Assembly (NCBI GenBank): GCA_028386065.3 | Contig: JAKUCV010002199.1 | Span: 62,001-126,000 of the forward strand | DNA: 64,000 bases | Direction of reading: 5' to 3' | DNA from: Turnera subulata | Taxonomy: Eukaryota > Streptophyta > Magnoliopsida > Malpighiales > Passifloraceae | Part shown: positions 35,419-60,755 of the stretch, piece after piece | Layout of the letters: every line of letters begins with the position of its first letter | Position numbering within the stretch: position 1 is the stretch's first letter | Notes under the pieces: generated by a model | Database searches by the model: none | Told to the model about the DNA's origin: nothing | What the model saw: only the letters and a program-made list of their open reading frames with translations | Program-made: the position numbers and the translations under genes

Positions 35419-37655
35419 TGAAACGCCCCGACCCGTATTTACCGTATATAGTAAACACGTGCCGGAACTGTAACGACTCAACCAATCAAAGCCCAGCATA
35501 CCGGGATAGACATCCCATGACAATTATATCATCATTATCCAAAACCATCGAGTCGTACCACTGCTTATCACGTGACAGTTATATCATCATTATCCAAAAC
35601 CAAATCACAGGGATCAACATCCCTAACCAAAATACCGGGATAGACATCCCATCCAAAACCGAGGATCGACATCCTTATCACAATTTATTATTTATTCCAT
35701 TTTATTTAATGCCAAAAAGACACAAGGATAAACATCCAAAAACTCGACGTACGGGAATAAACATCCCAAAACCAATCAAGACACTGGGATAAACATCCCG
35801 AAACATACCACAGCAAATGCATCAACCAACAGTACAACAATCATGAAACACAATAACCGAGTAATACAGGCACATATTGAAGGAAATCCATCCTCACCTT
35901 GGCCGATTACTCAACTCCGGAGACAATGACCGGTCCCAAGCCGGCTCCTCGGGAAACTGCCCGATATCAAACCTATACAACAAAACAATTTTCTCACATA
36001 AATGCACATAATCGGTATACTATGATGCCAAAACTGCGAAATAAACCCATCCCGGTTCATATCTTTTATTATCATCTTTTACCGAAAATATTATACCGTA
36101 TATCCGAATATAATTTTGGTACCATACTTAATTAAAACTCTTTTCAAAATATTTCCATAAATTAATTATACTTTTTTTTCCAAATTAATAATCAACATAA
36201 TTTTTATTTCTGGAAATTACATCATATATATGTATTTTTCCAAAACTACTTCCATAATATATATTACTTGCCAATAATAATTACCAAATATTATTATATT
36301 AGAAAACCATATTTCCAGTAAATATAATTAAATAAAATTATTTTCCTGAAAATAAATACGAATTATAAATATACATATATATATATATATATTCTAAAGA
36401 CAAAATTACATTTCCAAACCATTATATATCAACATAATAATTTATTTTTTAGAAATATTATTTATGTATACTATATATATATTTTTCCAAATTATTCCCA
36501 TATGCATAAGTATTAATTATTTTCTTTCCCAAATTCCATAATAATCATATGTATTTTCCAAGAGTACTTTTATAAATTATTTTCCAAAAATATACCTTAA
36601 TATATTTTCCAGATTATATTATTTTTTTAAAAAAACGGGCTGGGCCCGTGAACAGTACAAGGCCCAGATGAACAGTACCGGGCCGTGTACAGTGCGGGGC
36701 CGTGAACAGTATAGGTCTTGGGCCAGGCCGAGGACCCGCCGGGTCAACCCGACCCGACCCACAGCCCGACTGCTGAACGGGTCGTGTCTTCAACCTTGGG
36801 CTTACCTGCAACGAACGACGCGGCGGCACACGGGGAACGGCTGGCGAGCGGTGCAACGGGACGAAGGACGTCTGGTGACGCTGCTGTGGGTGGTTGCTGT
36901 CGGTGGCGTGGGTGGAAGCGGCTGAAGAGAAGGCGCGGTTGAGGGCCGGTGACGGTGTCGCGACTTGGCTGCTGGGCGCGGTTGTGGACGGCGACGGCAG
37001 CTCTGCCTCCTGCAGCGACGGCGAGGAGAAGACGCGTCGTCCGGCTGCGACAGTGGCAAGGCGGCGCGACACGAGGAGGAGAAGGCGTCGATGCAGCGGT
37101 GGCGTGTTGTGTGTGGGGGCGGCCGGCGATAATTCCTTCTCCGCCTCTTGTTTTTTTTTCTCTTCTTTTCTTTTTCCTTTCCGATTTCTATTTTTTTCCT
37201 TTTTTTCCTTTTCCCTTATTTTTCTTCTTCTCCTGATTTTCCTCTCCTCTTGTTTTTCTTCTTTCCTTTTTTTTTTCTCTTCCTCTCCTCTTCCTTCCCC
37301 CTTCTACTGCCTGATTTTCTTTTAAAAAGCTGTGAATGAACTGTTCAACCTGTGAATGTTCAATAATGCAGCTTGTCTGCATTATAGAGCGAGTCCGGTC
37401 TGGACCAGAAAATAACTGATACCCCCTTAGTTATTTTCCGGTGTGATTTTTCAAAGGATTCCGGGACCTGAAAAATACCAACTTTGGTCCGTAAAATCCA
37501 CGGAAAAATCTCGAGCGCGGGAAAACCCTCGGTTACGAAAAACGACGCCCGATTTACTTTGAATTAATTACCCAAAATTAATTCTTTCAGTAAATCATTG
37601 TAAAAAGACTTTTACAGTCCCGGTAAAAATCTAAATTTTTACCCGGGCTGTTACA
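35419..37655 (-). repeat. Element A, 3' LTR (left on the map)
   Basis: It starts TGAAACGCCCCGACCCG and ends GGGCTGTTACA as read on +. It has lost an internal block of roughly 0.6 kb near 35506, including the twin hairpins. It retains an AT-rich and GC-rich section (about 36066-36890) that the other LTR of this element has lost. Confidence 0.88.
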
Positions 37656-37680
37656 GTCTACCCACCTTAAAAAGAATTTC
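37656..37680 (-). other. Polypurine-like tract of element A
   Basis: On - the bases leading into the LTR read CTTTTTAAGGTGGGTAGAC. The same sequence is present, nearly unchanged, in element B at 56769-56793. Confidence 0.55.
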
Positions 37681-37795
37681 GTCCCCAAAATTCCGTCTTA
37701 TTCGTGGGTCCTACCATGATAAGCTTCTGGCACACTCTGCCAGGTGTCCAAACTCAACGCGAGATACTGCTTATACCCTTAAGCGACTTCTCATC

Positions 37796-37806
37796 CTCTA
37801 TAAAAA
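37796..37806 (+). promoter_or_regulatory. TATA box of antisense ORF1 in element A
   Basis: CCTCTATAAAAACC lies about 40 bp upstream of the ORF1 ATG at 37841. Element B has CTCTATAAGAACC at the same distance (56908-56920). The spacing suits a very short leader. Confidence 0.55.
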
Positions 37807-37840
37807 CCGAACCTCATGACTGGCAAACTCACACACAGTC

Positions 37841-38218
37841 ATGGACTCTCCACTGAGAACAAGAACGACCTCAGACTCCGAGGACAACAGCTATATCGGT
37901 GGTACTGCTTTCCCGACAAGCTCCAATGAAGAACCTCCAAAGAAATGCTTCAAGACGAACATCATCGGTCTGAAAGAACACATGGTCGTCTCCAGCAGAC
38001 GGCGAAAGAAGCGTGCTGGCAAGAAAGCTGAGGATAGGAAGGGCAAAGCAACGGCTGAAAGCAGCACTCCACAACAGACACTATCGCAGCTGAACGTCTC
38101 ACTGAAGAAGGTCAACGCGGCGGTGATGCAGATAGAACTGGCGTGCACGGAACTCTTTCCCCAAGTCAAAAACATCCAAAAGCTTGTAAAAGACTTAGAG
38201 AAGCAAGTAGCTCCATAG
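37841..38218 (+). CDS. Antisense ORF1 of element A, 125-aa basic protein of unknown function
   Basis: I do not recognise this protein. It starts MDSPLRTRTTSDSEDNSY and has a Ser/acidic N-terminus. Two basic clusters follow, PPKKCFK (residues 32-38) and RRRKKRAGKK (about 52-61), that could act as nuclear signals. The C-terminal third is helical-looking (LNVSLKKVNAAVMQIELACTE), with hydrophobic residues spaced as in a coiled coil. An ORF of exactly the same length is in element B (56954-57331), with about 18 substitutions and no indel. It lies antisense to the LTR orientation and has its own TATA box. Expression is not shown by sequence alone. Confidence 0.6.
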   Translation: MDSPLRTRTTSDSEDNSYIGGTAFPTSSNEEPPKKCFKTNIIGLKEHMVVSSRRRKKRAGKKAEDRKGKATAESSTPQQTLSQLNVSLKKVNAAVMQIELACTELFPQVKNIQKLVKDLEKQVAP

Positions 38219-39050
38219 AGTACTTCTTCTCCGTTGTAAAACTATTACGAATTAAATGAAATTAGTTTTCTTTTAAAATCAAAATTCTTATGTTACGAAG
38301 TCTTATGTTAAACAGAAAATCAAAACATCCCAAAGCAAAACAAAAATCAACAATAAGAATATAAAATCAAACATAAAGAGATTAAAAACAAAATTCGTTT
38401 AACAAAACCAAAACATACAGAAGTTAAAACAAAACACGTTTTCATGATCGGTGCTCGTATCGGACATAAACACCCTCGAACCCAAGAAACGTAACACGTG
38501 CAACTAACGGTGACGTCGGTTTCCCTCGTTGAAAAGACGTCCGTTAACTTGCAAGGCGGTGATCACGAGAGCGTCTTGTGTCCCTCGAAAGAAACGGTAT
38601 CCACTTGTTCACAAATTCCGCATGAGCCAAAAACATCTGTCAAGTCTCGTATCCCTCCATGGTGTCCGAACAGGTGTGAGCTTGTCGCACATGAGCTCTA
38701 CTCGAGGTATGGTCCCATTAGTCTAGCCTCAACGGTCACGGATGCATGTGATAAAAGATGTAGAAAAATAATGAAAAACCATAAAAAGAAACGCCAAGGT
38801 AGCCAGGGCGTTAGAAAATCGCGAGATGGAAAAGAGCTGAAAAACACTGGAAATTGTAGCCCGAAAAACGTATAAAGTAACGAAGCAATAAATGAAACTA
38901 TGGCAAAATTTTCAAAACAACACCTTGAAGAATGAAAACGATTGGAACTTTGTGAAGGGAATCTGCTTTTCCCATCACCGAAAAATCCTTTAGACCTTCC
39001 TGGGGATAGGTGGGGTCTAAACTTGGAAAAACAAAACGGTAAACATTTTT

Positions 39051-39060
39051 CTATAAAAGG
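39051..39060 (+). promoter_or_regulatory. TATA box of antisense ORF2 in element A
   Basis: CTATAAAAGG lies 109 bp upstream of the ATG at 39169. Element B has GAGTATAAAAGAC at 58051-58063, about 106 bp upstream of its ORF2. Confidence 0.55.
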
Positions 39061-39168
39061 CAAAACAACGGAAAGCAAAAACCACAAAGCATCTAAAAGC
39101 AAACAACGCTCAGGCAAACAAAACCACAACGCTAAAAAAAAACAAAATACCAACGCGTCCAAAACACG

Positions 39169-39850
39169 ATGCCTGCTCCATCATCCGTCTTCTTCGTCGA
39201 AGGTGCCAACCTAGGCAGAAGAAACCGGCTGGCCTACAGCATGATCAACGAGCATCCAGAGGAACCACCGAACGAGCTCGGCAGAATGCCACATCTGGTC
39301 TTCGTCGACGAACTCTACTCCTCCAGGTTCTTCGTCACTCCCATGGAAGAGACGTTCTTCCTAGAGGACCAAGGCACCTTGAGGACCTCCTTCTACGGCT
39401 CGGCCAACTCCGTCATGTTTTCATTCTGAAAGACTTCAGGAGTTCAACCTAGAGTCCACTTGCCATTTTCTGGAGCAAGGTACCTACTACCAGCTCTCGA
39501 TGACGGCCCAAAGCATGCCCAGAGTCACTCGGCTACCTCCAACTTGGCCAAAGGCCCGACTATTGGTGTGGAACTGCAGAGGAGTCGCTAGGCGTTCCCA
39601 GGAGTTCTCGCGTACCCTGAGGGTCCTGAGGAACCAGTAGAAGCCAAACATGGTTCTTCTCACGGAGACCCAACGACAGCCTGAAGACGATCACAGTCTC
39701 ATCCTTTTTCGGTTCCCCCAAGCAAACCGGTTCGAGCTTCCAGGCCAGAACAACACAAGTGGCATGTGGTTCTCGTGGAGCGGCAGCATCACGGTCAACA
39801 TCAACAATGACCCCAACAGCTTCAGGGTCAACGTCGTACCGAGAAGATGA
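39169..39850 (+). pseudogene. Antisense ORF2 of element A, broken copy
   Basis: It is homologous to the intact 227-aa ORF at 58169-58852. It reads MPAPSSVFFVEGANLGRRNR through about residue 84. A small deletion near 39418-39425 then shifts the frame, and an in-frame TAG lies near 39640. The C-terminal end (39650-39850) again matches (FRVNVVPRR). The central part includes the WNCRG motif of endonuclease/exonuclease/phosphatase domains. Its product would be truncated. Confidence 0.7.
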
Positions 39851-40096
39851 ATGTATTTTTTTTTAAAAAAATATCAATGTAATATTTATGTTTGTAATGA
39901 TAATATTAGTATTATTAATAATATTTATGTTTCTGCATATTTATGGCATCATTACCTCTTATGTGAATGTTCTGCGACAGCTGGCATCCCTTGACTGGAT
40001 CCATAATGCACTAACTAAATGATATAAATAATAAACAAATGGAGCGAACTATGCAAACAAGGACAACAAACACATAAGGACTTCCCAACAAGACCT

Positions 40097-40116
40097 AACG
40101 CCCGCTCCGCTACCAA
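40097..40116 (-). other. Primer-binding-site-like sequence of element A
   Basis: On - TGGTAGCGGAGCGGGCGTTA starts 3 bases after the LTR. Its first bases match the TGGTA start of tRNA-Met-type primer sites. Element B has the same sequence at 59057-59076. Confidence 0.55.
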
Positions 40117-40118
40117 AA

Positions 40119-42121
40119 TGAAACGCCCCGACCCGTATTTACCGTACATAGTAAACACGTGCCGGAACTGTAACGACCCAACCAATCAGAGCCCAACATA
40201 CAGTGTATATAATAGGAAACCGGCTTAACAACCCAAAATATAAACATTAGAAAACTGGCCCATCGGCCCAACAATAGCAATATAATGCCCTGCGGAAGAC
40301 TTAATAACTCACAAAGACACTGTATGCGACAATGATGCAAACTATGGATTCGAGTCTTGTCCAAGGGATAACACCGCAGCCTGTCTGGAATGCACCAAAC
40401 CTGTACCACAAATAACTCATCCTACGGGATGAAAGCCCGCAGGTGAGGGGTGAGTCCGAAGTGCTCACCGACGAAGGATAGACAATCAATATGCAACTCT
40501 ATAAATTACTGAAGTCGAACACAGGCTAAACAGCCAAACACACCAAAACAAAGACTCGTCCCAAAACCGGTCCAAGACCAAAAAGACTTAAATAAAATCC
40601 AATTTCCAATTTTATCTTTCCGGGCCCCGTCACAGATAAGCTAGGGGTCAGACCTAGTTCTCAACATATTTCAGGTGCCAGACCAAATCCAAGAGAGCCC
40701 AGGGATCGACATCCCAAAAATAATCACGGGATAGACATCCCAAGCATAGACATGCTTATCACAAGTAACCCAGGTCATGGCCATTACAAAACAGTCTTAA
40801 ACCATCGAGTCGTACCACTACTTATCACGTGACAATTATATCATCATTATCCAAAACCAAATCACAGGGATCAACATCCTTAACCAAAATACAGGGATAG
40901 ACATCCCATCTAAAACCGAGGATCGACATCCTTATCATAATTTATTATTTATTCCATTTTATTTAATGCCAAAAAGACACAAGGATAAACATCCAAAAAC
41001 TCGACGTACGGGAATAAACATCCCAAAACCAATCAAGACACTGGGATAAACATCCCGAAACATACCACAGCAAATGCATCAACCAACAATGCAACAATTA
41101 TGAAACACAATAACCGAGTAATACAGGCACATATTGAAGGAAATCCATCCTCACCTTGGCCGATTACTCAACTCCGGAGACAATGACCGGTCCTAAGCCG
41201 GCTCCTCGGGAAACTGCCCGATATCAAACCTATACAACAAAACAATTTCCTCACATAAATTCACATAATCGGTATACTATGATACCAAAACTGCGAAATA
41301 AACCCATCCCGATTCATATCTTTTATTATCATCTTTTACCATCCCGGTTGCTGTCGGTGGCGTGGGTGGAAGCGGCTGAAGGGAAGGCGCAGTTGAGGGC
41401 CGGTGACGGTGTCGCGACTTGGCTGCTGGGCGCGGTTGTGGACGGCGACGACAGCTCTGCCTCCTGCAACGACGGCGAGGAGAAGACGCGTCGTCCGGCT
41501 GCGATAGTGGCAAGGCGGCGCGACACGAGGAGGAGGAGGCGTCGGTGCAGCGGTGGCGTGTTGTGTGTGGGGGCGGCCGGCGGTAATTCCTTCTCCCCCT
41601 CTTGTTTTCTTTTTTTTTTCTCTTCTTTTCATTTTCCTTTCCGATTTCCATTTTTTTCCTTTTTTTTCCTTTTCCCTTATTTTTCTTCTTCTCCTGATTT
41701 TCCTCTTCTCTTTTTTTTCTTCTTTCCTTTTTTTTTTTTTTTCTCTTCCTCTCCTTTTCCTTCCCCCTTCTACTGCCTGATTTTCTTTTTAAAAGCTGTG
41801 AATGAACTGTTCAACCTGTGAACGTTCAATAATGCAGCTTGTCTGCATTATGGAGCGAGTCCAGTCTGGACCAGAAAATAACTGATACCCCCATAGTTAT
41901 TTTCCGGTGTGATTTTTCTGAGGATTCCGGGACCCGAAAAATACCAACTTTGGTATGTAAAATCCACGGAAAAATCTCGAGCGCGGGAAAACCGTCGGTT
42001 ACAAAAAACGACGCCCGATTTACCTTGAATTAATTACCCAAGATTAATTCTTTCGGTAAATCACTGTAAAAAGACTTTTACAGTCCCGGTAAAAATCCAA
42101 ATTTTTACCCGGGCTGTTACA
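40119..42121 (-). repeat. Element A, 5' LTR (right on the map)
   Basis: It has the same ends as the left LTR. It retains the twin hairpins and the whole palindrome cluster (40690-41070). It lacks about 0.83 kb that the left LTR has: the sequence jumps at 41340 from the TCTTTTACC block straight to the GC-rich block. Confidence 0.88.
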
Positions 42122-42126
42122 GGTGT

Positions 42127-44240
42127 AGACGAGTTCGAGTCTGAGTCTGAGTCTGCATTTTCTTTCGGTAATAAAGAGGAGCAACCATGTCACCCTCCCG
42201 ATTTTCAATTCAAGTCATCTAACACTTTCGAGGATAATGATGTTTTGCGTTTTTCAAAGAATAATATAAAGCTTACATTCCCTTACATTGGTGTTTGTGA
42301 TGATAATGTTGTTTGCATGGATGTTGTGCATAATGATGATGAACTAAATAAATTCCATGAAACACCCACTCTATCTGAATCTAATGAGGGTGAATCAATT
42401 GAGATTAACTTGGAAACCAAAACTGAACCTAAAGTCACCAAAATGAGCGCTACATTACTCGATAGTATTAAGGAAGAACTCCCCGCCTTGATCCGAGAAT
42501 ACGTGGTCCTATAAAGATATGCCCGATATCGATCCAGAGATCGCCCAACACCATATCCCGACCTTTCCGAGTGCCAAACCTGTCAAGCAAAAGGCGCGCC
42601 GCCTCCAACCACAATGGGCACTCATGGTAAAAGAGGAAGTGGAAAAGCAACTCCAAGTCGGATTCTTGGAAGTAATAGACTACCCTGAATGGTTAGCCAA
42701 TATCGTCCCTGTGCCAAAGAAGGATGGTAAGGTCCGCATGTGTGTCGATTATCGAGATTTGAACAAAGCATGTCCTAAGGATGAGTTTCCATTGCCACAT
42801 ATCGATCTACTAGTTGACGCTACTGTTGGTCAAGCACTCTTATCATTCATGGATGGATTCTCTGGGTACAACCAAGTACTAATGGCACCCGTGGATAAGC
42901 ATAAGACGGCTTTCTGCACAGAATGTGGTACTTTCTACTACAAGGTAATGCCGTTTGGACTCATTAATGCTGGCGCCAATTACCAACGAATTGCCACTAC
43001 TCTTACTCACGACATGATGCATGACATAGTGGAAGTATACGTCGATGACATTATCGTTGTCGCAAACCAATGAGTCACATATGCCCAATCTACGGCAATT
43101 CTTTGAGAGATGTAGGAAATTTAGCATGAAGATTAACCCGCAAAAATGTGTCTTCGGTGTAAAAGCAGGAAAGCTACTCGGTTTCATGGTTAGTGAAAGA
43201 GGAATCGAGGTCGACCCCAGCAAGATCAAGGCAATTCAAGAGATGCCAATTCCAAGGACCGAGAAGGAGATTAGAAGTTTCCTCGGCCGTGTACAATACA
43301 TTAGTAGATTTATCGCACAATTATCCAGTATTTGCACGCCTATTCATCGACTCCTGAAGAAAGGGGTATCAACCGAATGGAATGATGACTGCCAACATGC
43401 CTTTGATCGAATAAAAGAGTACCTATCCACTCTACCAATCTTACAACCGCCCAGATCGGGTCAACCACTTCTTCTATATCTCACTGTGACTGACAATGCC
43501 ATGGGTGCAATGCTCGCGCAATATTTGCCTGACTCTCGCAACGAGAATGCTATCTACTACTTGAGCAAGAAGTTGACTGATTATAAAGCCAAGTACAACA
43601 TGATTGAGAAGACATGCCTCGCATTGACATGGGCTTGCCAAAAATTAAGACATTACTTTGTGACACATGAGGTGCTTCTCATCTCCCGAATGGATCCTAT
43701 CAAATACCTCCTAGAGAAACCGGTGCCAAGTAGCAAAACGGCTCGCTGGGTCTTAATTTTATCTCAATTCGACATCCAATTTGTGTCCTAAAAGGCTGTT
43801 AAAAGAAGCGCCATATCTGATTTCTTGGCCTTTCAACCGGTGACCCATGACGAAAGATTCGAGCCTCAATTTCCCCATGAAGGTATCTTGACAATCACCA
43901 TCCCAACATGGGAGATGTACTTCGATGGTGCACAAACGAAAGCGGTTTCGGCACTGGTATTATCCTCATTTCACCCGACAAAGTCACTTATCCTCTGTCT
44001 TGCAAGCTAGAGTTTGAAGCCACGAATAATATAGCCAAATATAAAGCATGTACTATTGGGCTCGAAACTGCCCTTAACCTTGGTATACGGCAAATTCGGG
44101 TATATGGTGACTTTGCTCTAGTAATTTCACAAGTCATGGGTGAATGGAAGATCAAAGAAGACAAACTTATGCCTTATCACGAATATCTACAAAATGATAG
44201 CCGCTATGTTCGAGGAAATAGCTTTCTACTATGTCCCTAG
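42127..44240 (+). pseudogene. Tat pol: reverse transcriptase, RNase H and second RNase H
   Basis: Downstream of element A the polyprotein resumes. The reverse transcriptase (42519-43073) has VPKKDGKVRMCVDYRDLNKA, KVMPFGLINAGA and the catalytic YVDD (residues 174-177). A frameshift near 43065 leads to the rest of RT and the first RNase H (43045-43791), with LLGFMVSERGIEVDPSK and YNMIEKTCLALTWACQKLRH. A TAA at 43789-43791 and a frameshift near 43940 follow. The second, archaeal-type RNase H (43900-44240) has WEMYFDGA, EATNNIAKYKA, VYGDFALVISQVMGEWK and KEDKLMPYHEYL. Two RNase H domains in series fit the Tat group. Stops and shifts make the polyprotein non-functional. Confidence 0.9.
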
Positions 44241-44252
44241 GAAAATAACCAA

Positions 44253-45743
44253 TTGGCTAATGCACTTGCCTTCTTAGCCTCCATGATCGGCATACCTAAG
44301 AATGCCATCATCCTGCCTATTGGAATTCAAAAGAACGCCGAGCCGTCTTTCCATCGAGAATCTACAATGCCAAAGCCATTGTTCAAGAATCCCATTCATG
44401 CCATTTACACCGACCAAGAGGCAATTATGGATATCACTGTGGCCGAAACGAATCGACCCTCCTACACCTTGAGTAATCTAAATGCCGAGGGGCAAAATTG
44501 GTACACCGATATATACAATCTCTTATATGGTGGATCCTATCCTGAGCATGCAACTAGTAAAGAAAAAAAAATTCTAAAACAACTCGCCACCGGATACATT
44601 CTATGCGCTGGCAAGTTGTATAAAAGACATGCCAGTGGGGGTCATTTACTCTGTGTCGATACCAATGAAGCTCAGAGAATCATAAAAAAGGTGCATGGAG
44701 AAGACAAAGGCCCACACATGGGTGGAAACATGCTAGCTCAAAAAATCCTACGATTGGGATACTTTTGGTCTACCATGGATGCCAATTGTGCCAAACATGT
44801 TAGATCTTGCCACACATGTCAAGTGCACGCCAAGTTGCAACTTCTGCCACCGTCTCCTCTTACGCCTCTATCGTCGCCTTGGCCATTCTCTACATGGGGT
44901 ATTGATATCATCGGAAAGGTCTCTCCTAAGTCATCTAACGGGCACGAATACATCCTAGTGGCTATCGACTATTTCACCAAATGGGTTGAAGCCGAGTCCT
45001 TCACCGTCCTTAATGCCAAGAAAATTGCCAAATTCATTCACAACAACCTCATCTGCCGATATGGTGTTCCTTTTGAGCTAATATCTGACAATGGTGTTCA
45101 CTTGAAAGCCAATGTGGAAAGGTTATGCGCCCGCTACGCCATGAAACATCACAAGTCTTCACCTTATCGACCTCAAACTAATGGAGCTGTGGAAGCTGCT
45201 AACAAGAACCTCAAGACAATCATAAAAAAGATGCTTATTACACACCGAGAGTGGTCGGAAAAGCTACCATTAGCACTATGGGGATATCGCACCACTATCC
45301 GTTCATCCACTGGTGCTACACCGTACTCTCTTGTATATGGCATGGAGGCTGTGCTCCCCGTTGAACTTGAGGTCCAATCTTTGAGGGTGGCCCGCGAAAG
45401 TATGATTCCTAAGACACAATGGGTTCAAGAACGCCTAGATCAACTCACACTACTCGATGAAAAGCGTTTGCAAGCTCTATACTATGTCCAAGGTTATCAA
45501 AGGCGTATGGCGCATGCATTCAATAAAAAGGTTAAGTCTCGAGGGCTGAAAGAAGGCGACTTAGTGCTCAAAGAGATACGGCAACCGGTGCATGATCCTA
45601 TGGGCAAATTCAAGACTAATTGGTGCGGACCGTACATTATCAAGGAAATGCTTCCTGGAGGGGCAACAAGAATTCAAGATCTAGATGGCAACGAGTTCAA
45701 GGACCCAGTCAACATGGATCAGCTCAAGAAATACTATGTGTAG
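44253..45743 (+). CDS. Tat integrase region, 496-codon open segment of pol
   Basis: It is the longest uninterrupted reading in the window and the C-terminal part of the Tat polyprotein. It begins just after a TAG (44238-44240). The zinc-binding H-H-C-C set is H148, H155, C186 and C189. The catalytic triad is present: D218 in WGIDIIG, D279 in ISDNG and E314 in NGAVEAANK. The C-terminal part has YRTTIRSSTGATPYSLVYGMEAVLP and GPYIIKEMLPGG, usual for gypsy integrases. The first 60 residues follow the second RNase H. It has no start context of its own and would be made only as part of the polyprotein. Confidence 0.88.
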   Translation: MANALAFLASMIGIPKNAIILPIGIQKNAEPSFHRESTMPKPLFKNPIHAIYTDQEAIMDITVAETNRPSYTLSNLNAEGQNWYTDIYNLLYGGSYPEHATSKEKKILKQLATGYILCAGKLYKRHASGGHLLCVDTNEAQRIIKKVHGEDKGPHMGGNMLAQKILRLGYFWSTMDANCAKHVRSCHTCQVHAKLQLLPPSPLTPLSSPWPFSTWGIDIIGKVSPKSSNGHEYILVAIDYFTKWVEAESFTVLNAKKIAKFIHNNLICRYGVPFELISDNGVHLKANVERLCARYAMKHHKSSPYRPQTNGAVEAANKNLKTIIKKMLITHREWSEKLPLALWGYRTTIRSSTGATPYSLVYGMEAVLPVELEVQSLRVARESMIPKTQWVQERLDQLTLLDEKRLQALYYVQGYQRRMAHAFNKKVKSRGLKEGDLVLKEIRQPVHDPMGKFKTNWCGPYIIKEMLPGGATRIQDLDGNEFKDPVNMDQLKKYYV

Positions 45744-45972
45744 CGCTCAAAACATTGTTCAAAGAACTACGTAGACCTGATTCTGTGCAAACACAATCAT
45801 AATAACACAATAAATAGTCACGAAGCGCAGATACGTAGGAAGCCTGCAAAGGTCCGGTCTCTTATTATTACGTCAATAAAAGTTTCCAAGTTGACTAAAA
45901 ACTGGAATTTATTTGGTCTCGTTGTTATTTTGCATACTCATAAATGAAAATAACATTCTTTGTCATAAGTCT

Positions 45973-47259
45973 CTAATGCCTAGGGCGTTTATACCTCAAA
46001 TTCTTGTCATTATCTTCTTCCTCTGACTCAGTATGTCCCACAGACTCAGCTCTAGTTGGCTTAGGACTGTCCATTATCTTCTTTCGTCTCGCACGCAGCA
46101 ATTTCTCCAATGGCTTAGTTGCGTCCCTTAGCCACTCCTTATACCACAGAATAGGAGGCTCCAACGCACGCGTTCCTACGCCAATCCAAGTCAAGAGAGT
46201 CCAATTACTACAAATAATCCCAATGAGTTTACCATCCATAGTCCCTTGGATAGGAGGGGTGATCATACAAGGAACAGGTTGAGCTTGACCAATTTGTCTC
46301 ATAAACCGCGTCGTGTTGTAATAGGTAGACTGCTTGATACCGGGTAGCAACACTACTTCATTGCCGAATGTGTCTCTCGCCATGCGTATAACCTTCAGCC
46401 AATCACAATGCCACATTATATCAATGGAAGTCAGATGATGCAGATAGGTGACCTACTCTCTCATAGTCGCAAAGTTCTGGAGTCGACGCCTTGTTGAATA
46501 GCCCGCTGACGTGTACTTCAATGATACCGGACGTTCAATGATCTTGAGATGTTCACACAGCCACATTTGCAATAGCAATGGAGAACCGCCAATTGGTCCA
46601 TTCAAGTCATCCTCAAGGGCGTCTAGCGCATTAAGGGTTACGCCAACTACTAGTGGTACAATGCTATTTCCTTTGTAGAGCTGTTCGACGTATTCTCCAA
46701 GAATAACGTGACCCATGCCATGACGCGTCTTTAGCAAGAACTCATTCATCATGACAAATGATAGGACCTGCTTCCTTTTCTCTCTCCAACTGCTTCTGAG
46801 TGTCTCGTCTCCATCTACATGATACAAAGAGATCAATGGTCTCAAGTCGATATAATCTTCGTCTATCAAGAGAGCGTCCCACCAATCCTTGGATATTGAT
46901 AAGTAGGCGCACACAATCCTTGCATATGGGGCATTGTACGATGCAACAACAATTTTTCTGTTCCTTATCTCCCCGGTGAGCTGATCTTCGGTGTCACTTG
47001 TCGTTAATCCAAGGAGAGCGTCGAACTCTTCCACTGTCGGGCAGAGCTCCATCATATCGCTTCCAAAGCGGAACACATGATTCTCTCTATCCCAAAACGT
47101 CGCTGCGGCCCTTATCAACTCTGGTTGGACTTGCACAAACCTCAAATTGAATAGCCTCTTCAGATCCAGGAAATCATATTGAATGGCTTTGGAGATACTC
47201 TTCATCCAAGCTTGCACTCTAGCATGAAAATTGTCACCCATGGTGTTTAAAGTACTCAA
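45973..47259 (-). pseudogene. Antisense plant-mobile-domain (PMD) ORF of the Tat element, one premature stop
   Basis: On - a 429-codon frame runs from ATG 47259 to a stop at 45973, broken only by TAG at 46453-46455. After that stop the frame continues as VTYLHHLTSIDIMWHCDW. The N-terminal 268 residues match the plant mobile domain/aminotransferase-like family: FWDRENHVFRFGSDMMELCPTVEEFDALLGL, given here only as landmark residues, then WW-containing and DGDETLRSSWREK segments. The C-terminus is basic/acidic (SEEEDNDK). Antisense ORFs between integrase and 3' LTR are known in Tat elements. A TATA box lies about 47 bp upstream. It is probably inactive in this copy. Confidence 0.8.
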
Positions 47260-48167: not shown

Positions 48168-48178
48168 CGAGGGGCATC
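48168..48178 (+). other. Polypurine tract of the Tat element
   Basis: GCGAGGGGCATC lies directly before the 3' LTR start (TGTGAACACCC at 48179). Confidence 0.6.
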
Positions 48179-49611
48179 TGTGAACACCCAAATTTAGCCA
48201 TCTATTTGTTCCATTGCTTGTTATTGTGTTTTAGAGCCCAAGGTTAATTTTATTGACTTTTGGTCTTTAATTTGCTTGAAGAACCCAATAAATAAATCAG
48301 TGGATTATTCTTATAATTAGGCCCAGGCTTAGCACGAATTTTTTAGCTTATTTGTCTCTAATTTTCGCTGAATTAGAGGCCCAATTAAGTTAGTTTATTA
48401 TTTTGCCTATTTTATGGAATAAAAGAGGAATAATTCCTAATTCTTGGAGTAGAGGTTAAGTAATTGAGTTTACATGGAAAGAGTATGGAGTTTTCCTCAA
48501 GAATAGGGAGTTTTTCTGGTTTAAGAATCCGTACTTTGTGCGCAAGAATCGATTTGGAGTCAAAATAAGGGAAACCGGGTCAAAATAGGAAAAGCCGTGA
48601 ACAGTAACCGCAGGCCGGCGGTCATAGGGCCATGACCGCCGCCTGCCGGCGGACATGTGTGCATGACCGCCACCTGCCGGCGAACATGTGTGCATGACCG
48701 CCACCTGCCGACGGTCATCACGACATGACCGCCCCCAGATGGCGGTCATGTGTTCCAGTTTCGGTAATTTTTTAGTTTTTCCTTTTTTTCGATCTCTACC
48801 CTCAGCCATTAGATTTAGGGATTTAATCTCGACCTTAGGATCAAAACCACGCCCCCTGAGACCCTGAACACTACAAATAGAGCTCTCATAACATGTTTTA
48901 GGGGGGGTTGGCCATTAAGCTTCTTGCTTGGGAAAACTCTACTACTTTCTTTTCTTAATTCGATTTCTTTGCTTTTTCTCTGCTAGATTTCACGTGCTGT
49001 GTTGTTTAATTTTGTCTCTGCATTAGTTCTAGAGCCAATCAAGGTGGAACTAAGGAACAGAAAGAGGGTAGAAGCAATCTACAACCCTCAAACGCGAAGA
49101 ACGACGAAGAACACGCCCCTTGTGGTAACTCGGTCTCTTCCCCTTTGATTTATCTCTGCTGCTGCAATTTTGTCTCTGGTTGTACATACTGATATGTTTG
49201 CTGAGTGTTGATTCTAATATAAGAACTACGTGAGCTTTGAATGTCTCTAGTGGTAGAGACGCAAGCTAAATTGTTTCTTTTCTTTTTTTCCTTGTCTCTT
49301 TAATTTCGATTTTTATATATATTATTGTTACTGTTTGTTGCTGGAAATCTTGGTTTACACACATACACACACGCAGCAAAGCACAAGTATTCGCTTAAAT
49401 TGCATATTATTTCGCGCAAGCATGGATAGGGTGCCTCATACCTTCCTATCCATGACGAACCCCCGAGTCCAGCACCTTTGGTTCACTAATCTGGTTGCTT
49501 TGCGGGTATAAGGAGTTATTCTTTGGTTTTTCCTGAGTTTTTCCACGGTAATAAAACTTGGGTGGCGACTCCATTGATTGTCACGAGGTGAGAAAGTTCC
49601 GGGTTCTCACA
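48179..49611 (+). repeat. 3' LTR of the Tat element
   Basis: It is the same length as the 5' LTR (1433 bp), although indels are visible. It has an extra GC-rich repeat unit near 48690 and a loss of about 30 bp near 49240. Confidence 0.92.
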
Positions 49612-51990: not shown

Positions 51991-51997
51991 ATGGCAT

Positions 51998-52457
51998 TGA
52001 AGGGGGAGCATTATGAATATATGAGTGAATGTCATTTTTACCGTAAAAATAATTTTTATCAGACAGTAAAAATGATTTTTACCATACTAAAATTTATCCC
52101 TGTAAAATATTTTATCATACACCTAACTTTCACATGGATTGTTCTATCTATGTATCTACCTATCTACCTTCCATTATCTTCATCTTTATTATCTAATAAC
52201 TATATGATTTTATTCTTATAATATAACGTCAGTTATTTGTTTTTATCCTCTGAGTTTTACCTATAAATACCTCCTTCATTCATACACATTTCTAACTTTG
52301 ATCTTCCAACATAAACTTACCTCTTCTTATTTCTATATACATTTCTCCTCAACCTCTTTTCCTAGTTTAATTATTACCATGTATTCATATTATTATTTAT
52401 TATCAAATTTACATCAAAGTTATATTATTAATTGTATTTCATCTTATTTTATAATTT
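51998..52457 (+). repeat. 3' LTR (approximate) of the outer copia element
   Basis: It is the partner of 25070-25459. It shares the TATA-like CCTATAAATACC (near 52258) and TTTGATCTTCCAA. It contains a partly repeated GTAAAAATGATTTTTACC stretch absent from the 5' copy. Confidence 0.7.
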
Positions 52458-53589: not shown

Positions 53590-53823
53590 AAGGATTTTTG
53601 GTATAGTTGGTACCCAACTTTCTTACGTTGGGTCAATCGTGTACCTACAACTTTTCTCGAGACATTTATGTACCTGAGGTTTTAGCGGGCAGGCCAGTCA
53701 TGGGTCTCGGGTGGGGCATGTGCTGACGTGGTTTCTGCCTGATTTTGGGCTGCTGCCCGTGGCTCAAAGTGACCTAGAATCACCACGATACGACGTCGTT
53801 TTGCGTCCATGTGTCATAAGTGG
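53590..53823. mobile_element. MULE-arm-like sequence, interrupted by element B
   Basis: Blocks in the order GTACC...GCAGGCC...TGCTGACGTGG...ACGACGTCGTTTTG...CATGTGTC match, in the same order, the left arm of the Pack-MULE at 61074-61290, though strongly diverged. Element B is inserted at its inner side. The continuation after B (60761-61035) is not clearly MULE. Confidence 0.5.
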
Positions 53824-56768
53824 TGAAACGCCCCGACCCGTATTTACCGTACACAGTAAACACGTGCCGGAACTGTGACAACCCAACCAGACAAAGCCCA
53901 GCATACAGTGTATACAACAGGAACACGGGCTCAACAACCCAAAATAGTAAACATCAATAACAACATAACCGGCCCAATGGCCCAACAATAGTAAAAATAA
54001 TGCACAGTGGAACACTTAATAACTCACAAAACACTGTATGCGACATAGATGCAAACTATGGATCCGAGCCTTGTCCAAGGGATAACGCCGCAGCCTGTCT
54101 GGAATGCACCAATCCTGTACCACAAATAATCCATCCTACGGGATGAAAGCCCGCAGGTGAGGGGTGAGTCCGAAGTGCTCACTGACGAAGGATAGACAAT
54201 CAATATGCAACTATAATAACTCAAGGTCCAAAAACAGGTAAAAACCACCAAATACATACCAAACCGAAAACTCGACCCAAAACTGGTCCAAGACCAAAAA
54301 GACTAAAATAAAAAACCCAATTTTCAATTTTATCTTTTCCGGGCCCGTCACGGATAAGCTAGAGGTCAGACCTGGTTATCAACATATTCCGGATGCCAGA
54401 CCAAATCCAGAGAACCCAGGGATCGACATCCCAAAAATACGAACCCAGGGATAGACATCCCAAAAATAATCACGGGATAGACATCCCAAGCATAGACATG
54501 CTTATCACAAGTAACCCAGGTCACGGCCACCACGAAATAGTCTTAAACCATCGAGTCGTACCACTACTTATCACGTGACAATTATATTATCGTTCAAAAC
54601 CAAATCTCAGGGATCGACATCCCTAACCAGAATACCGGGATAGACATCCCATCCAAGATCAAGGATCGACATCCTTTTCACATTTTATTGTTTATCCATT
54701 ATACTTAAGGCCAAGACACGAAAATAAATATCCGAAACCTGACGCACGGGGATAAACATCCCAAAAATCAAATCAACATACTGGGATAAACATCCCGACA
54801 ACAATCACAACAAATGCATCAACTAACAGTGCAACAATCATCAAACACAACAACCGAGTAACATAGGCACATATAGAAGGAAATCCATCCTCACCTTGGC
54901 CGATTACTCAACTTCGGAGACAATGACCGGTCCGACGCCGGCTCCTCGGGAAACTGCCCGATATCCAAACCTATCCAACAAAACAACATATACACATAAA
55001 TGCACATAATCGGTATACTATGATGCCAAAACTGCGAAATACCCCATCCCGGTTCATATCCGTTATTATTATCTTTTACCGAAAATATTATACCGTACGT
55101 ATATCCGGATATAATTTCGGCACCATACTTTAATTAAAACTCTTTTAAAAGTATTTTCATAAAATAATTATAATTTTTTTCCAAAATTATATTCTCCTTA
55201 ATTTTCCAGAAAAATAATAACGTATTTATAATTTCCAGAAATATATATAGTATTTATCTTTTTCTAAACACAAATAATATTTTCCAACCCAGAATATAAT
55301 TATCTTTAATTTACCCAATTAATATGTCTAAGTATTTTTTTTCCAAAAAACATAACCATATACTAGGTATACCAAAATAATTATATCTGGTCAAATTAAT
55401 TATTTGGTCTATTTTCAGAAATTATGTAATTTATTAGTCATATATATATATATTATTTTTATTATTATTTTTTAAACCGGACTGGGCCAAATAGTGCAAG
55501 CCCAGCCCAATGCTTAGCCCCATAACCCAAGTGCATCCATGACAGAACCCAAGCCCACTACTCTAAGCCCGTTAGCCACAGCCCATTCAGATAACCAAAC
55601 AATCCCATGAACCCATCAACCCATATACTAAATACCCAAGCCCAAAAATAATTCAACCCAAACCCACACAACCCTAGAGAATTCGGGCCAACCCGTCACA
55701 AACGGGTCGACCCACACGCTTATAACACCCTGCCACTGCTCACCTTTGTGGCCTAACGGCAAACGGTGCAACGGAAAGAGGCGGGCGGCGGCGTCGAGGC
55801 CGGCGACGGGGCGGCTGAACTTGCGGGCGGTGGCGCAGCTGAATGGGAAGCGTCGATGGTGGCCTCCTGTTCGTGGCCGGCGGCTGCACCACGTAGGGCG
55901 ACGGCGAGAGCGAGCGGCGCGGGGCAGCGATGCGAGGAACGGTCCACGCCGGTCGTGTCGAGCCATGGTTGGTACGGGGGAACGCAGGCTGGAGACGGCG
56001 TTGCTGGTGGTGTGGGTCGCTGCAGGTGGGGAGGCGAGGTGTCCTGCTGGTGACGGTCGGTGATGGACTCGGGTCATCGGGCGGCTGCGAGCGAGGGAAG
56101 GAAGAAGGGATGGTGGCAACGCCGGGTGGTCGTGGTTGTGATGGTGTCTTGTGTGAGGGTGAAGATGGTTCATGGGTCTCGGGAACAGAAGAAAGAAGAG
56201 GAAGGAGAGGAAGGTGGTCTCGGTGTTCACGGTGGCAGTGGATTGTAGGTGATGGGTAAAGGAGAAGGGTAAGGAAAAAGATAGGTGATGGCTACCCCAA
56301 AACGACGGTGTTGGGGGCTGGTGTTGTGTGGTTTTTGGTGTTTCTGAATGAGGAGTTGCAGGCAGGAAAGGAAGGAGAAGACTGATTTTTGTTTTGGGCA
56401 GGTAGCAAGCAGGAAAAAGCAGGGTGCAAGGGCGACACAGAAGAAAGGTAAGGCACGAGCATCACAGGGATAGGCGGCGCAGACTCAATCATGCAGGTAA
56501 GCCGTGTCCAGACCGGACCAGAAAATAACTAATACCCTCTTGGTTATTTTCCGGTGTGATTTTTCCGAAAATTCCGGGACCCGAAAAATACCAACTTAGG
56601 CTCGAAAAATACAAGGAAAAATCACGAGCGCGGGAAAACTCTCGGTTTCGAAAAACAACACCCGATTTACCTTGAATTAATTACCCAAGATTAATTCTTT
56701 CGGTAAATCGCTGTAAAAAGACTTTTACAGTCCGGTAAAAATCCAAAATTTTTACCCGGGCTGTTACA
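53824..56768 (-). repeat. Element B, 3' LTR (left on the map), longest LTR copy
   Basis: At 2945 bp it is the most complete LTR. It has the twin hairpins (54135-54180), the palindrome cluster (54415-54795), an AT-rich part (55080-55470), a GC-rich part (55690-56250) and the conserved GGGCTGTTACA end. Confidence 0.88.
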
Positions 56769-56907
56769 GTCTACCCACCTTGAAAAGAATTTCGTCCCCA
56801 AAATTCCGTCTTATCCGTGGGTCCTACCATGATAAGCTTCTGGCATACTCTGCAAGGTGTCCAAACCCAACCCGAGATACCGCTTATACCCTTAAGCGAC
56901 ATCTCAG

Positions 56908-56920
56908 CCTCTATAAGAAC
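56908..56920 (+). promoter_or_regulatory. TATA box of antisense ORF1 in element B
   Basis: CCTCTATAAGAACC lies about 40 bp upstream of ATG 56954, at the position of the TATA box in element A. One base of the core differs (TATAAG). Confidence 0.5.
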
Positions 56921-56953
56921 CAAACCTCATGACTGGCATACTCACACACAGTC

Positions 56954-57331
56954 ATGGACTCTCCACTGAGATCAAGAACTACCTCAGACTCCGAGAACAA
57001 CAGCTACATCGGTGGCACTGCCTTCTCGACAAGCTCCGATGAAGAACCTCCCAAGAAACGGTTCAAGACGAACATCATCGGCCTGAAGGAACACATGGTC
57101 GTCTCCCCTAAACGGCGAAAGAAGCGTGCCGGCAAGAAAGCTGAGGATCGAAAGGGCAAGGCGACGGCTGAAAGCAGCACTCCGCAGCAGACACTGACGC
57201 AACTGAACATCTCACTGAAGAAGATCTGCTCGGCGGTGTTGCAAATCGAACTGGCGTGCGCGGAACTCTTCCCTCACGTCAAAAACATCCAACAACTTGT
57301 AAAAGATCTTGAGAAGCAAGAATCTCCATAG
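56954..57331 (+). CDS. Antisense ORF1 of element B, 125-aa basic protein of unknown function
   Basis: It is the homologue of 37841-38218: same length, same start and stop context, about 18 of 125 residues different. Changes include several conservative ones (K/R, I/V, S/T). The basic motifs PPKKRFK (32-38) and KRRKKRAGKK are kept. So is the C-terminal amphipathic segment ending LVKDLEKQ. I know no family for it. DNA-binding or nuclear localisation would fit the basic clusters, but that is inference. It is antisense to the element. Confidence 0.6.
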   Translation: MDSPLRSRTTSDSENNSYIGGTAFSTSSDEEPPKKRFKTNIIGLKEHMVVSPKRRKKRAGKKAEDRKGKATAESSTPQQTLTQLNISLKKICSAVLQIELACAELFPHVKNIQQLVKDLEKQESP

Positions 57332-58050
57332 AGTACTTCTTCTCCTGTTGTAAAACTATTATAAAATAAACAAAATAAGTTTCCTTTCTAAATCAAAAAC
57401 TCTTGTTAAATTGTGAAAACTCTCAAAGCAGAACAAAAATCAATAATAAGAGTATAAAATCAAATATAAAGAAATTAAAAACAAAACTCGTTTAACAAAA
57501 CCAAAATATAAAGAAGTTTAAACAAAATATGTTTTCATACTCGGCGCTCTGGATCGATCGTAACCATCCTCGAACCAAGAAACGTAACTCGCACAGCTAT
57601 CGGTGACGTCTGTTCCCTCGTGAAAAAAGACGACCGTTATCTCGCAAGGTGACGGTCACGAGAGCGTCCTGTGTCCCTGGAAAGAAACGTACCCACTTGT
57701 CCACAATTTCCGCATGAGCCAAAAACGTCCGTCAAGTCTCGTATCTCTCCACGATGTTCGAACGGTGTAAGCTTGTCGCACATGCGCTCTACTCGAGGTA
57801 TGGTCCCATCAGTCCAGCCTCAACGGTCACGAATGCATGTGATAAAAGATGCAGGAAAATATAGAAAAACCATAGAAAGAAGGGACAAGATAGCCAGGGT
57901 GAAAGAAAATCATGAGATGGGAAAAGGCTGAAAAACTCTGGCTTTGTAGCCCGAAAAACGTATAAAGTAACAAAGCAATAAGTGAAGGAACGACAAAATT
58001 TTCAAAAAGCAAATCTTGAAAATCGAAAACAGTAATCACGCTCCCCATAT

Positions 58051-58063
58051 GAGTATAAAAGAC
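58051..58063 (+). promoter_or_regulatory. TATA box of antisense ORF2 in element B
   Basis: GAGTATAAAAGACGG lies about 106 bp upstream of ATG 58169. The corresponding site in A is at 39051, in otherwise diverged sequence (the A copy has extra bases between). Confidence 0.55.
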
Positions 58064-58168
58064 GGAGCGTGAGGTGTAAATCATCAAAAGCATTTAAAAG
58101 CAAACACCGCTCAAAAAAACAAAACCACAGCGCTCAGAAAAACAAAATACCCACATTTCCAAAACACG

Positions 58169-58852
58169 ATGCCTGCTCTTTCATCCGTCTTCTTCGTCGA
58201 AGGTGCCATTCTAGGCAGAAGGAACCGATTGGCCTACAGCATGGTCAACGAGCGTCCAGAAGAAATATCGAACGAGCTCGGCAGGATGCCGCATCTGGTC
58301 TTCGTCGACGAACTCTACTCGTCCAGATTCTTCATCACTCCCATGGAAGAGACGATCTTCCTGGAGGATCAAGGTACTCTGATGACCTCCTACTACGGCT
58401 TGGCAAACTCCATCATGTTCTTCATCTCGAAAAGACTTCAGGAGTTCAACCTAGAGTCCACTTGCCATTTCCTGGAGCAAGGCACCTACTACCAACTCTC
58501 GCTGACGGCCCAAAGCATGCCCAAAGTCACTCGTCTGCCCGTAACTTGGCCAAAGGCCCGACTACTGGTGTGGAACTGCAGAGGAGTCGCTAGGCGTTCC
58601 CAGGAGTTCTCGCGTACTCTGAGGGACCTGAAGAACCAATACAAACCCAATATGGTTCTTCTCACGGAGACCCAGTGGCAGCCTCAAGACAATCACGGTC
58701 TCATCCCACTCCGGTTCCCTCAAGCAAACCGGTTTGAGCTTCCCGGTCAGAACAACGCGGGTGGAATGTGGTTCTCGTGGAGTGACAGCATCACGGTCAA
58801 CATCAACAACGACCCCAACAGCTTCAGGGTCAACGTCGTTCCGAGAAGATAA
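58169..58852 (+). CDS. Antisense ORF2 of element B, 227 aa with a truncated endonuclease/phosphatase-type (EEP) segment
   Basis: Residues 1-130 (start MPALSSVFFVEGAILGRRNR) match nothing I know. Residues about 131-222 resemble the first half of an EEP domain as in plant LINE endonucleases: LLVWNCRG (132-139), a KPNMVLLTETQ segment with the metal-binding-type Glu (167), and GGMWFSW (198-204) before a short strand. The later catalytic D/H motifs are missing and the protein ends VNVVPRR. Nuclease activity is therefore unlikely. It may be a chimera of an unknown gene and a LINE fragment, or a host-gene-derived protein. The frame is intact here and broken in element A. It has its own TATA box. Confidence 0.6.
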   Translation: MPALSSVFFVEGAILGRRNRLAYSMVNERPEEISNELGRMPHLVFVDELYSSRFFITPMEETIFLEDQGTLMTSYYGLANSIMFFISKRLQEFNLESTCHFLEQGTYYQLSLTAQSMPKVTRLPVTWPKARLLVWNCRGVARRSQEFSRTLRDLKNQYKPNMVLLTETQWQPQDNHGLIPLRFPQANRFELPGQNNAGGMWFSWSDSITVNINNDPNSFRVNVVPRR

Positions 58853-59056
58853 ATGTATTTTTATTTTTATAAAATATCAATGTAATATTTCTGCTTATCT
58901 ATGGCATCATTACCTCTTATGTGTACGTTCTGCGACAGCTGGCGTCCCTTGACTGAATCCATAATGCACTAACTAAAATGATATAAAATAATAAACAAAT
59001 GGAGCGAACTATGTAAATAAGGACATCAAACACACAAAGACTTCCCAACAAGACCT

Positions 59057-59076
59057 AACGCCCGCTCCGCTACCAA
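59057..59076 (-). other. Primer-binding-site-like sequence of element B
   Basis: TGGTAGCGGAGCGGGCGTTA on -, identical to element A. Confidence 0.55.
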
Positions 59077-59078
59077 AA

Positions 59079-60755
59079 TGAAACGCCCCGACCCGTATTT
59101 ACCGTACACAGTAAACACGTGCCGGAACTGTGACAACCCAACCAGACAAAGCCCAGCATACAGTGTATACAATAGGAACACGGGCTCAACAGCCCAAAAT
59201 AGTAAACATCAATAACAACATAACCGGCCCCCGCCGTTTCTAGGACCGACCGACGCCCCACCTGCAATGGCCCAACAATAGTAAAAATAATGCACAACGG
59301 AAGACTTAATAACTCACAAAACACTGTATGCGACATAGATGCAAACTATGGATCCGAGCCCTGTCCAAGGGATAACGCCGTAGCCTGTCTGGAATGCACC
59401 AACCTTGTACCACAAGTAATCCATCCTACGGGATGAAAGCCCACAGGTGAGGGGTGAGTCCGAAGTGCTCACTGACGAAGGATAGACAATCAATATGCAA
59501 CTATAATAACTCAAGGTCCAAAAACAGGTAAAAACCACCAAATACATACCAAACCGAAGACTCAACCCAAAACTGGTCCAAGACCAAAAAGACTAAAATA
59601 AAAACCCAATTTCCAATTTTATCTTTTCCGGGCCCCGTCACGGATAAGCTAGAGGTCAGACCTGGTTATCAACATATTCCGGATACCAGACCAAATCCAG
59701 AGAACCCAGGGATCGACATCCCAAAAATACGAACCCAGGGATAGACATCCCAAAAATAATCACGGGATAGACATCCCAAGCATAGACATGCTTATCACAA
59801 GTAACCCAGGTCACGGCCACCACGAAACAGTCTTAAACCATCGAGTCGTACCACTACTTATCACGTGACAATTATATTATCGTTCAAAACCAAATCTCAG
59901 GGATCGACATCGCTAACCAAAATACCGGGATAGACATCCCATCCAAGATCAAGGATCGACAACCTTTTCACATTTTATTATTTGTCCATTATACTTAAGG
60001 CCAAGACACGAAAATAAATATCCGAAACCCGACGCACGGGGATAAACATCCCAAAAATCAAATCAACATACTGGGATAAATATCCCGACAACAATCACAA
60101 CAAATGCATCAACTAACAGTGCAACAATCATTAAACACAACAACCGAGAAGATGGTTCATGGGTCATGGGAAAAGAAGAAAGAAGAGGAAGGAGAGGAAG
60201 GTGGTCTCAGCGTTCACGGTGGCGGTGGATTGTAGGTGATGGGTAAAGGAGAATGGTAAGGAAAAAGATAGGTGATGGGTACCCCAAAACGACGGTGTTG
60301 GGGGCTGGTGTTGTGTGGTTTTTGGTGTTTCTGAATGAGGAGTTGCAGGCAGGAAAGGAACGAGAAGACTGATTTTTGTTTTGGGCAGGTAGCAAGCAGG
60401 AAAAAGCAGGGTGCACGGGCGACATAGAAGAAAGGTAAGGCACGAGGGTCACAGGGATAGGCGGCGCAGACTCAATCATGCAGGTAAGCAGTGTCCAGAC
60501 CGGACCAAAAAATAACTAATACCCTCTTGGTTATTTTCCTGTGTGATTTTTCCGAAAATCCCGGGACCCAAAAAATACCAACTTAGGCCGAAAAAATCCA
60601 CGGAAAAATCACGAGCGCGGGAAAACTCTCGGTTTCGAAAAACGACGCCCGATTTACCTTGAATTAATTACCCAAGATTAATTCTTTTGGTAAATCGCTG
60701 TAGAAAGACTTTTACAGTCCGGTAAAAATCCAAAATTTTTACCCGGGCTGTTACA
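59079..60755 (-). repeat. Element B, 5' LTR (right on the map), internally deleted
   Basis: It matches the left LTR but jumps at about 60147 from the palindrome cluster directly to the GC-rich segment equivalent to 56165, losing about 1.3 kb. It also carries a 39-bp insertion near 59227-59265 absent from all other copies. Confidence 0.88.

Follow-up and report, generated by a model that had tools for sequence, protein, structure and literature searches.

Why would a long terminal repeat (LTR) retrotransposon without gag-pol keep two open reading frames (ORFs) that run against its own transcript? This question is raised by a 64,000-nucleotide stretch of the Turnera subulata genome (contig JAKUCV010002199.1, positions 62,001–126,000; hereafter the window), in which two related elements, A and B, each carry ORF1 and ORF2 on the plus strand between LTRs that read on the minus strand. 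We analysed the structure of both elements, their relatives in the same genome, and the conservation of the two ORFs. The most probable reading is that A and B are copies of a high-copy, chromovirus-derived non-autonomous element, in which gag-pol was replaced by two antisense accessory genes and which is moved in trans.

Elements A and B are non-autonomous LTR retrotransposons, each with an LTR pair, a 5-bp target-site duplication (TSD), a primer site, a polypurine tract and a gag-pol-free interior (coordinates in Table 1). The TSD of element A, a perfect GGTGT, lies at 35414–35418 and 42122–42126, and TG...CA ends were found in both elements. On the minus strand, the LTRs of A and B are flanked by the primer-site-like sequence TTTTGGTAGCGGAGC, which in A we take to resemble initiator-Met tRNA, and by the polypurine-like sequence AAGGTGGGTAGAC. 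The LTR pair of A differs by 4.8% in a pairwise alignment. The interior measures 2463 bp in A and 2310 bp in B; neither gag nor pol was recognized among the listed interior ORFs, and Pfam found neither in ORF1 or ORF2. Perfect 5-bp TSDs, LTRs and a gag-pol-free interior had been claimed for both elements in a first-pass annotation of the window, and the coordinates, the ORF list and the Pfam search bore this out. The same annotation placed both ORFs in both elements: ORF1 is indeed open in A and B, but ORF2 is open in B only, the copy in A differing from that in B by a 2-bp gap near 39428 and an in-frame TAG.

The orientation of A and B was assessed from gag-pol relatives in which the same LTR end meets the primer site. 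In the window's own assembly, which was the genome searched here (518.7 Mb in 7125 contigs), this junction occurred 4353 times with up to three mismatches, against 0 occurrences of a reversed control pattern. Among the first 30 exact matches listed, a selection that favours well-kept copies, 20 were read; three were omitted as lying beside listed ORF2 matches, an omission that works against ORF2, and seven without stated reason. Beyond the 20 junctions, ORF2 stood on the opposite strand in 17 and a sense-strand gag in three (L036, L041 and L045). All three gags bear a zinc-knuckle-like motif, and Retrotrans_gag scored on L045. Two stretches farther along L036 and L045 (L049 and L050, with approximately 500 bp between unread) contained pol-like frames on the strand of gag, followed by a polypurine tract–LTR junction close to that of B; ORF1 and ORF2 were absent from these two pieces (best tblastn expect value, E, 0.30). 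On L049, the sole partner copy scored for pol, Pfam detected RVT_1, RNase H, integrase and Chromo, all of them antisense to ORF1 and ORF2, the Chromo match lying barely above its cut-off (25.2 versus 25.1 bits). A sense gag thus follows the same junction, with pol on that strand; the sense strand of A and B is therefore minus, as first proposed, and ORF1 and ORF2 are antisense. Relatives with gag-pol coded on the plus strand, which would have overturned that proposal, were not encountered among the junctions read.

The ends of the elements point to the identity of this partner. Around the primer-site junction, the three partner copies were 85–90% identical to B over 80–81 columns, and on the tract side the LTR columns matched B at 78% in L049 (216 columns) and at 83% in L050 (107 columns). 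Beside its tract, B also retains sequence similar to that in which the partner's pol region finishes. As in a Tekay/Del derivative, LTR ends, primer site and tract are common with a chromodomain gag-pol element. These sequence comparisons suggest that the likely partner of A and B is a Tekay-type chromovirus, a lineage name that we assume from the chromodomain of L049 and from further features of such elements, and they show A and B to be chromovirus derivatives with antisense ORF1 and ORF2 in place of gag-pol. The arrangement of Retand/Tat elements, pol with an antisense ORF before the 3' LTR, was not found: A and B are without pol, and the scored partner has a chromodomain.

The search of the genome with ORF2 gave 8214 candidates and that with ORF1 gave 3869, the best 150 being scored in each case. 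Twenty ORF2 loci were read over 10 kb; all 20 were taken from stop-free entries of the ORF2 list and are hence biased towards intact ORF2. ORF1 was present too in 17 of these 20 loci, the exceptions being L012, which was without ORF1 but with LTR sequence, and L009 and L010, which were without either. For seven further elements both ends could be placed, with a perfect 5-bp TSD in six and a one-base difference in the seventh. Whether other copies drop the ORFs or their link to the LTRs was thus tested from both sides, by ORF1 at the ORF2 loci and by ORF2 at the junctions, and the resulting ORF1–ORF2–LTR linkage supports the earlier suggestion that the element is the carrier of a two-gene cassette. 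At one locus (L017, positions 9997–9329 of the oriented locus), a second, inverted ORF2 lies near the first, as in clustered or nested copies.

TATA boxes were found upstream of both ORFs in both elements. The distance to ORF1, first given as about 40 bp, is 42 bp, but the 106–109 bp given for ORF2 did not hold, the boxes starting 117 bp (A) and 115 bp (B) before the ORF. All 19 copies compared for ORF1 have a TATAWR motif 39–47 bp ahead of it. For ORF2, the motif lies 60–125 bp upstream in 33 of 35 copies, a count that omits L009, L010 and two of the 17 junction loci, in which the start was not aligned. Upstream of ORF2, the most conserved 8-mer was TATAAAAG (0.95 versus a median of 0.73). 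The conservation of these boxes suggests that ORF1 and ORF2 may be self-promoted. The ORF2 TATA box of B is flanked by the arms CACGCTCC and GGAGCGTG (window 58037–58071), and the CACGCTCC block is conserved (0.92) in the alignment of copies; by eye, element A appears to hold a different inverted repeat at the same site.

The two ORFs showed the marks of selection at the protein level. Between A and B, the ratio of non-synonymous to synonymous substitution rates (dN/dS) was 0.22 for ORF1 and 0.19 for ORF2, and the observed number of synonymous differences was reached in 1 of 5000 randomizations for ORF1 and in 0 of 5000 for ORF2, with the codons around element A's indel excluded. Over the 17 ungapped copies of ORF1 (two of 19 were dropped as gapped), the pairwise mean dN/dS was 0.18. 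The value for ORF2 was 0.12 over 21 copies, a set that is biased in that its loci were picked as stop-free from the ORF2 list, and from which the ORF2 of element A was dropped as gapped. In the junction sample, the 12 ungapped copies of ORF2 gave a dN/dS of 0.13 with a mean dS of 0.52, after five of 17 copies had been dropped as frameshifted or truncated. Low dN/dS held in every divergence band. A codon model with free omega was better by 227 log units for the ORF2 junction sample, 125 for ORF1 and 247 for ORF2 in the 20 loci plus B; the comparison run was specified as MG{1.0} (omega of 1), and only the likelihood gap is relied on. The synonymous excess, dN/dS and codon models together rule out that the ORFs are chance open frames. 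The LTR pairs of nine single elements differed by 2.4–4.5%, corresponding to insertion ages of 0.9–1.8 million years at an assumed rate. Since this difference is far smaller than dS between copies, most of the divergence predates insertion and arose while the lineage was replicating. These results show that both proteins were under purifying selection in the replicating lineage.

The proteins themselves gave few matches to known families. In the aligned copies, ORF1 has, by eye, basic clusters that look nuclear-signal-like, and a helical-looking C-terminus. Residues 134–217 of ORF2 weakly match Exo_endo_phos (positions 2–90 of 225 of the Pfam model, E 0.0036, below cut-off), and residues 131–214 align with the N-terminus of L1 endonucleases of the same genome, at 31% identity (E 7e-8) with L056 and 29% (E 4e-7) with L053. 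This comparison covered six L1 fragments, each represented by its longest stop-free piece, over 76–87 columns, and the E-values apply to the six-fragment set; as compared, only L056 and L053 extend into the start of the endonuclease, while the other four do not. A complete Exo_endo_phos catalytic domain was not found, as ORF2 stops after the N-terminal part; because of this truncation, an active endonuclease was judged unlikely. ORF1 and ORF2 had no homologue among approximately 5.8 billion proteins, and ORF2 had no match in viral and prokaryote contigs, sets that were not chosen for plants, so that absence from them says little. Against solved structures, ORF2 gave seven matches, all with E of 0.28 or worse.

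ORF2 was also detected outside LTR elements. In L009 (approximately 2530–6663) and L010 (approximately 2339–5843), it lies within elements with CTCCCTCCGT-type ends, which we take to be of the mariner type. A DDE_3 match in L009 was below cut-off (23.5 versus 28.6 bits), and the same element holds a second ORF2, partial and diverged (5552–6034). Both elements bear a minus-strand coiled-coil-like ORF, for which 148 matches from 221 candidates were obtained in the genome; these include distant ones, and a stop interrupts most of the close ones. Fourteen loci were chosen from this match list, four of them known beforehand to have ORF2, and in all 14 ORF2 was near the coiled-coil-like ORF. Ten of the 14 ORF2 copies were ungapped over all or nearly all of their length, nine of these ten being stop-free; the other four had a frameshift, were truncated or ran past the edge of the stretch read. 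In three copies, namely, L009, L010 and C6660 (via L071/L073), the reading took in the mariner-type end on either side; at C101 (L072) a mariner-type end was not seen within 1.3 kb. The C6660 copy includes a piece of LTR-element interior and an LTR end finishing TTACA, and transfer from LTR element to DNA transposon is therefore indicated in that case. Loci with the coiled-coil-like ORF occupy at least three positions among the LTR copies in a tree of ORF2. That transposons of two unrelated kinds carry ORF2 suggests a portable accessory gene.

Parts of this arrangement have precedents. Large retrotransposon derivatives (LARDs) have LTRs and a long interior without gag-pol, as do A and B, but that interior is non-coding, whereas the interior genes of A and B are under selection. 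Cereba, an autonomous element with a non-autonomous relative, is a chromovirus. Elements including Grande, RIRE2 and Retand have been described as containing antisense ORFs, and gene23 of maize Grande is antisense, transcribed from an upstream promoter and gives a nuclear product, according to the portion of the article available (PMC7264820). Retand elements are characterized by antisense ORFs, and some recently active clusters are non-autonomous, without Gag or other domains, as far as the accessible text goes (PMC11963269); additional ORFs occur across Ty3/Gypsy lineages (PMC9289625, available in part). The A/B genes resemble Grande gene23 and the aORF-3R of Retand and RIRE2 in being antisense to their element, and the gene23-like combination of an antisense protein-coding gene with purifying selection was found here as well. 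In those elements, however, the antisense ORF is described, in the accessible parts of these sources, as lying between pol and the 3' LTR with part of gag-pol kept, whereas in A and B two antisense genes replace gag-pol in a chromovirus derivative, and ORF2 has an L1-endonuclease-like part.

A protein-coding non-autonomous relative that keeps the ends of its partner has been described in wheat. RLG_Quinta retains the LTR ends, primer site and tract of autonomous RLG_Cereba and encodes Gag plus DUF1 in a single ORF, and RLG_Sabrina also belongs to this comparison, as read in the part of the article at hand; the word 'antisense' is absent from its main text, so far as that was available (PMC11302176). 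Unlike Quinta, A and B lack gag, and their two genes are antisense, stand apart from each other and each have a TATA box of their own. VANC of the Arabidopsis VANDAL elements, a transposon-borne gene, is linked to hypomethylation of related copies in the available portion of its description (PMC13317346); it is alike in that a transposon gene would act on its own family but belongs to a DNA transposon, and the analogy would be a functional one. A literature search with little coverage of subscription journals turned up no paper recognized as describing antisense, self-promoted genes that replace gag-pol in a chromovirus derivative. Antisense self-promoted genes and protein-coding non-autonomous chromoviruses are each already known; their combination, as proposed for A and B, was not encountered in that search.

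Taken in order, the proposed history is that the A/B family descends from a Tekay/Del-type chromovirus, of which it keeps the LTR ends, primer site, tract and pol-end-like stretch. Its copying by chromovirus enzymes in trans is presumed from the ends common with the partner, and the ORF1 and ORF2 proteins would be made from antisense mRNAs. Selection kept ORF1 and ORF2 in a gag-pol-free element, and the benefit should therefore fall on copies of the family, which suits an action on the family's own DNA or RNA. The accessory products most probably favour the spread of their own family by countering DNA silencing, or by aiding the particle or cDNA in the nucleus; by analogy, the leading options would be a VANC-like silencing suppressor and a particle or nuclear-import role. 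Under the second of these, ORF1 and ORF2 would not act against silencing but would chiefly help to assemble particles or to bring cDNA into the nucleus, a role proposed for the accessory proteins of certain other elements. This is a possible but minority explanation: the basic clusters of ORF1 and the reported nuclear location of the Grande antisense protein (PMC7264820, available portion) speak for it, and the lack of any Pfam match of ORF1 and ORF2 to gag or known import factors speaks against it. Slightly more doubtful still is the full proposal that the satellite keeps its two self-promoted antisense genes as a tool of spread, for example, as a suppressor of LTR silencing, and that one of them, built partly from L1 endonuclease, moved into mariner-like transposons and is open there.

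The remaining explanations give the proteins no such role or reverse the element. Antisense transcripts from the internal promoters might, by way of double-stranded RNA, regulate the element or a partner, so that the RNA and not the proteins matters; the genes are indeed antisense to the LTR transcript, and double-stranded RNA roles of such transcripts are discussed in the accessible part of PMC7264820, but codon selection (dN/dS of 0.13–0.18 and the synonymous excess) would then be unexplained, which makes an RNA-only role improbable. More improbable again is passive cargo, in which a fragment, once captured, was simply copied along and its conservation reflects nothing but recent amplification: part of ORF2 looks captured, because its second half is L1-like, and roughly half of the copies sampled are broken, but the copies separated from one another long ago, as the mean dS of ORF2 indicates, dN/dS is low within every divergence band, and for the sampled copies this explanation is largely refuted by dN/dS and the codon models. 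TG...CA ends are compatible with either strand, and ORF1 and ORF2 would be ordinary sense genes if the element ran on the plus strand; this has next to no probability, and plus as the sense strand is ruled out by the sense gag behind the same junction, the pol on the strand of gag and the positions of primer site and tract.

Several observations weigh against the preferred reading of A and B as chromovirus derivatives with two accessory genes under selection. The gag frame is interrupted in L036 and L041, that is, in at least two of the three partner gags, and the pol frames are interrupted in both partner copies read (L049 and L050), so that no intact partner was seen; moreover, the likeness between the partner and B is restricted to the element ends. 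The region upstream of ORF1 is conserved throughout (median block 0.91), and because of this the ORF1 TATA box is not distinct. In the A–B comparison of ORF1, one minus-strand frame has 22 of 46 differences synonymous, against 25 of 46 in its own frame, but it holds stops. Many copies have decayed, ORF1 being intact in ten of 17 ungapped copies and ORF2 in eight of 17 copies of the junction sample. Finally, ORF1 and ORF2 had no Pfam match above cut-off, and the AlphaFold model of ORF2 (mean predicted local distance difference test score 34.5) was not confident and was unusable for a fold search.

Element A is nested inside another gypsy element, which we take to be Retand/Tat-like, with host gag, reverse transcriptase and integrase found on both flanks. 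This host bears antisense ORFs, one of which matches DUF7745 below cut-off. The LTR at the left edge of the window belongs to the wider group of A/B LTRs and has no primer site behind it, as in a solo or truncated copy. Elsewhere in the window, approximately 4513–5940 holds exons that presumably belong to a glutamine-dependent asparagine synthetase gene, and 61703–62197 holds an ORF that we assume to resemble cysteine desulfurase, the start of which overlaps an inverted repeat pair (61640–61728/62229–62316).

Table 1. Positions in the window of elements A and B, their ORFs and TATA boxes, and neighbouring LTR-element sequences
Feature	Position	Strand	Remarks
Element A	35419..42121	-	Non-autonomous LTR retrotransposon, based on LTRs and TSD GGTGT
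Element A 3' LTR	35419..37655	- (sense = minus)	2237 bp
Element A polypurine tract side	37656..37680	-	Ends AAGGTGGGTAGAC; similar tract in partner
Element A TATA box of ORF1	37799..37804	+	Starts 42 bp before ORF1
Element A ORF1	37841..38218	+	125 aa, intact, antisense to element
Element A TATA box of ORF2	39052..39057	+	Starts 117 bp before ORF2
Element A ORF2	39169..39850	+	Broken: 2-bp gap, in-frame TAG
Element A primer-binding-site-like sequence	40099..40118	-	Adjoins 5' LTR
Element A 5' LTR	40119..42121	-	2003 bp
Element B	53824..60755	-	Second copy; perfect 5-bp TSD AGTGG
Element B 3' LTR	53824..56768	-	2945 bp
Element B polypurine tract side	56769..56793	-	
Element B TATA box of ORF1	56912..56917	+	TATAAG; starts 42 bp before ORF1
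Element B ORF1	56954..57331	+	125 aa, intact
Element B TATA box of ORF2	58054..58059	+	Starts 115 bp before ORF2
Element B ORF2	58169..58852	+	227 aa, intact
Element B primer-binding-site-like sequence	59059..59078	-	
Element B 5' LTR	59079..60755	-	1677 bp
Gypsy host of A, repeat pair	30576-32012 and 48175-49611		92-96% alike, probably its LTRs
Gypsy host of A, further parts	33194-34513, 42519-45743, 45973-47241		
Related LTR, opposite orientation	1..2935	+	Ends ...GGGGCGTTTCA at 2935; clipped by window edge

Elements without gag-pol are usually viewed as passive freeloaders, but the A/B family shows selection on the proteins that it encodes, and the LTR-driven sense transcript cannot be the mRNA of either ORF1 or ORF2. 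What a satellite must encode itself when a relative supplies the enzymes is thereby made a testable question.

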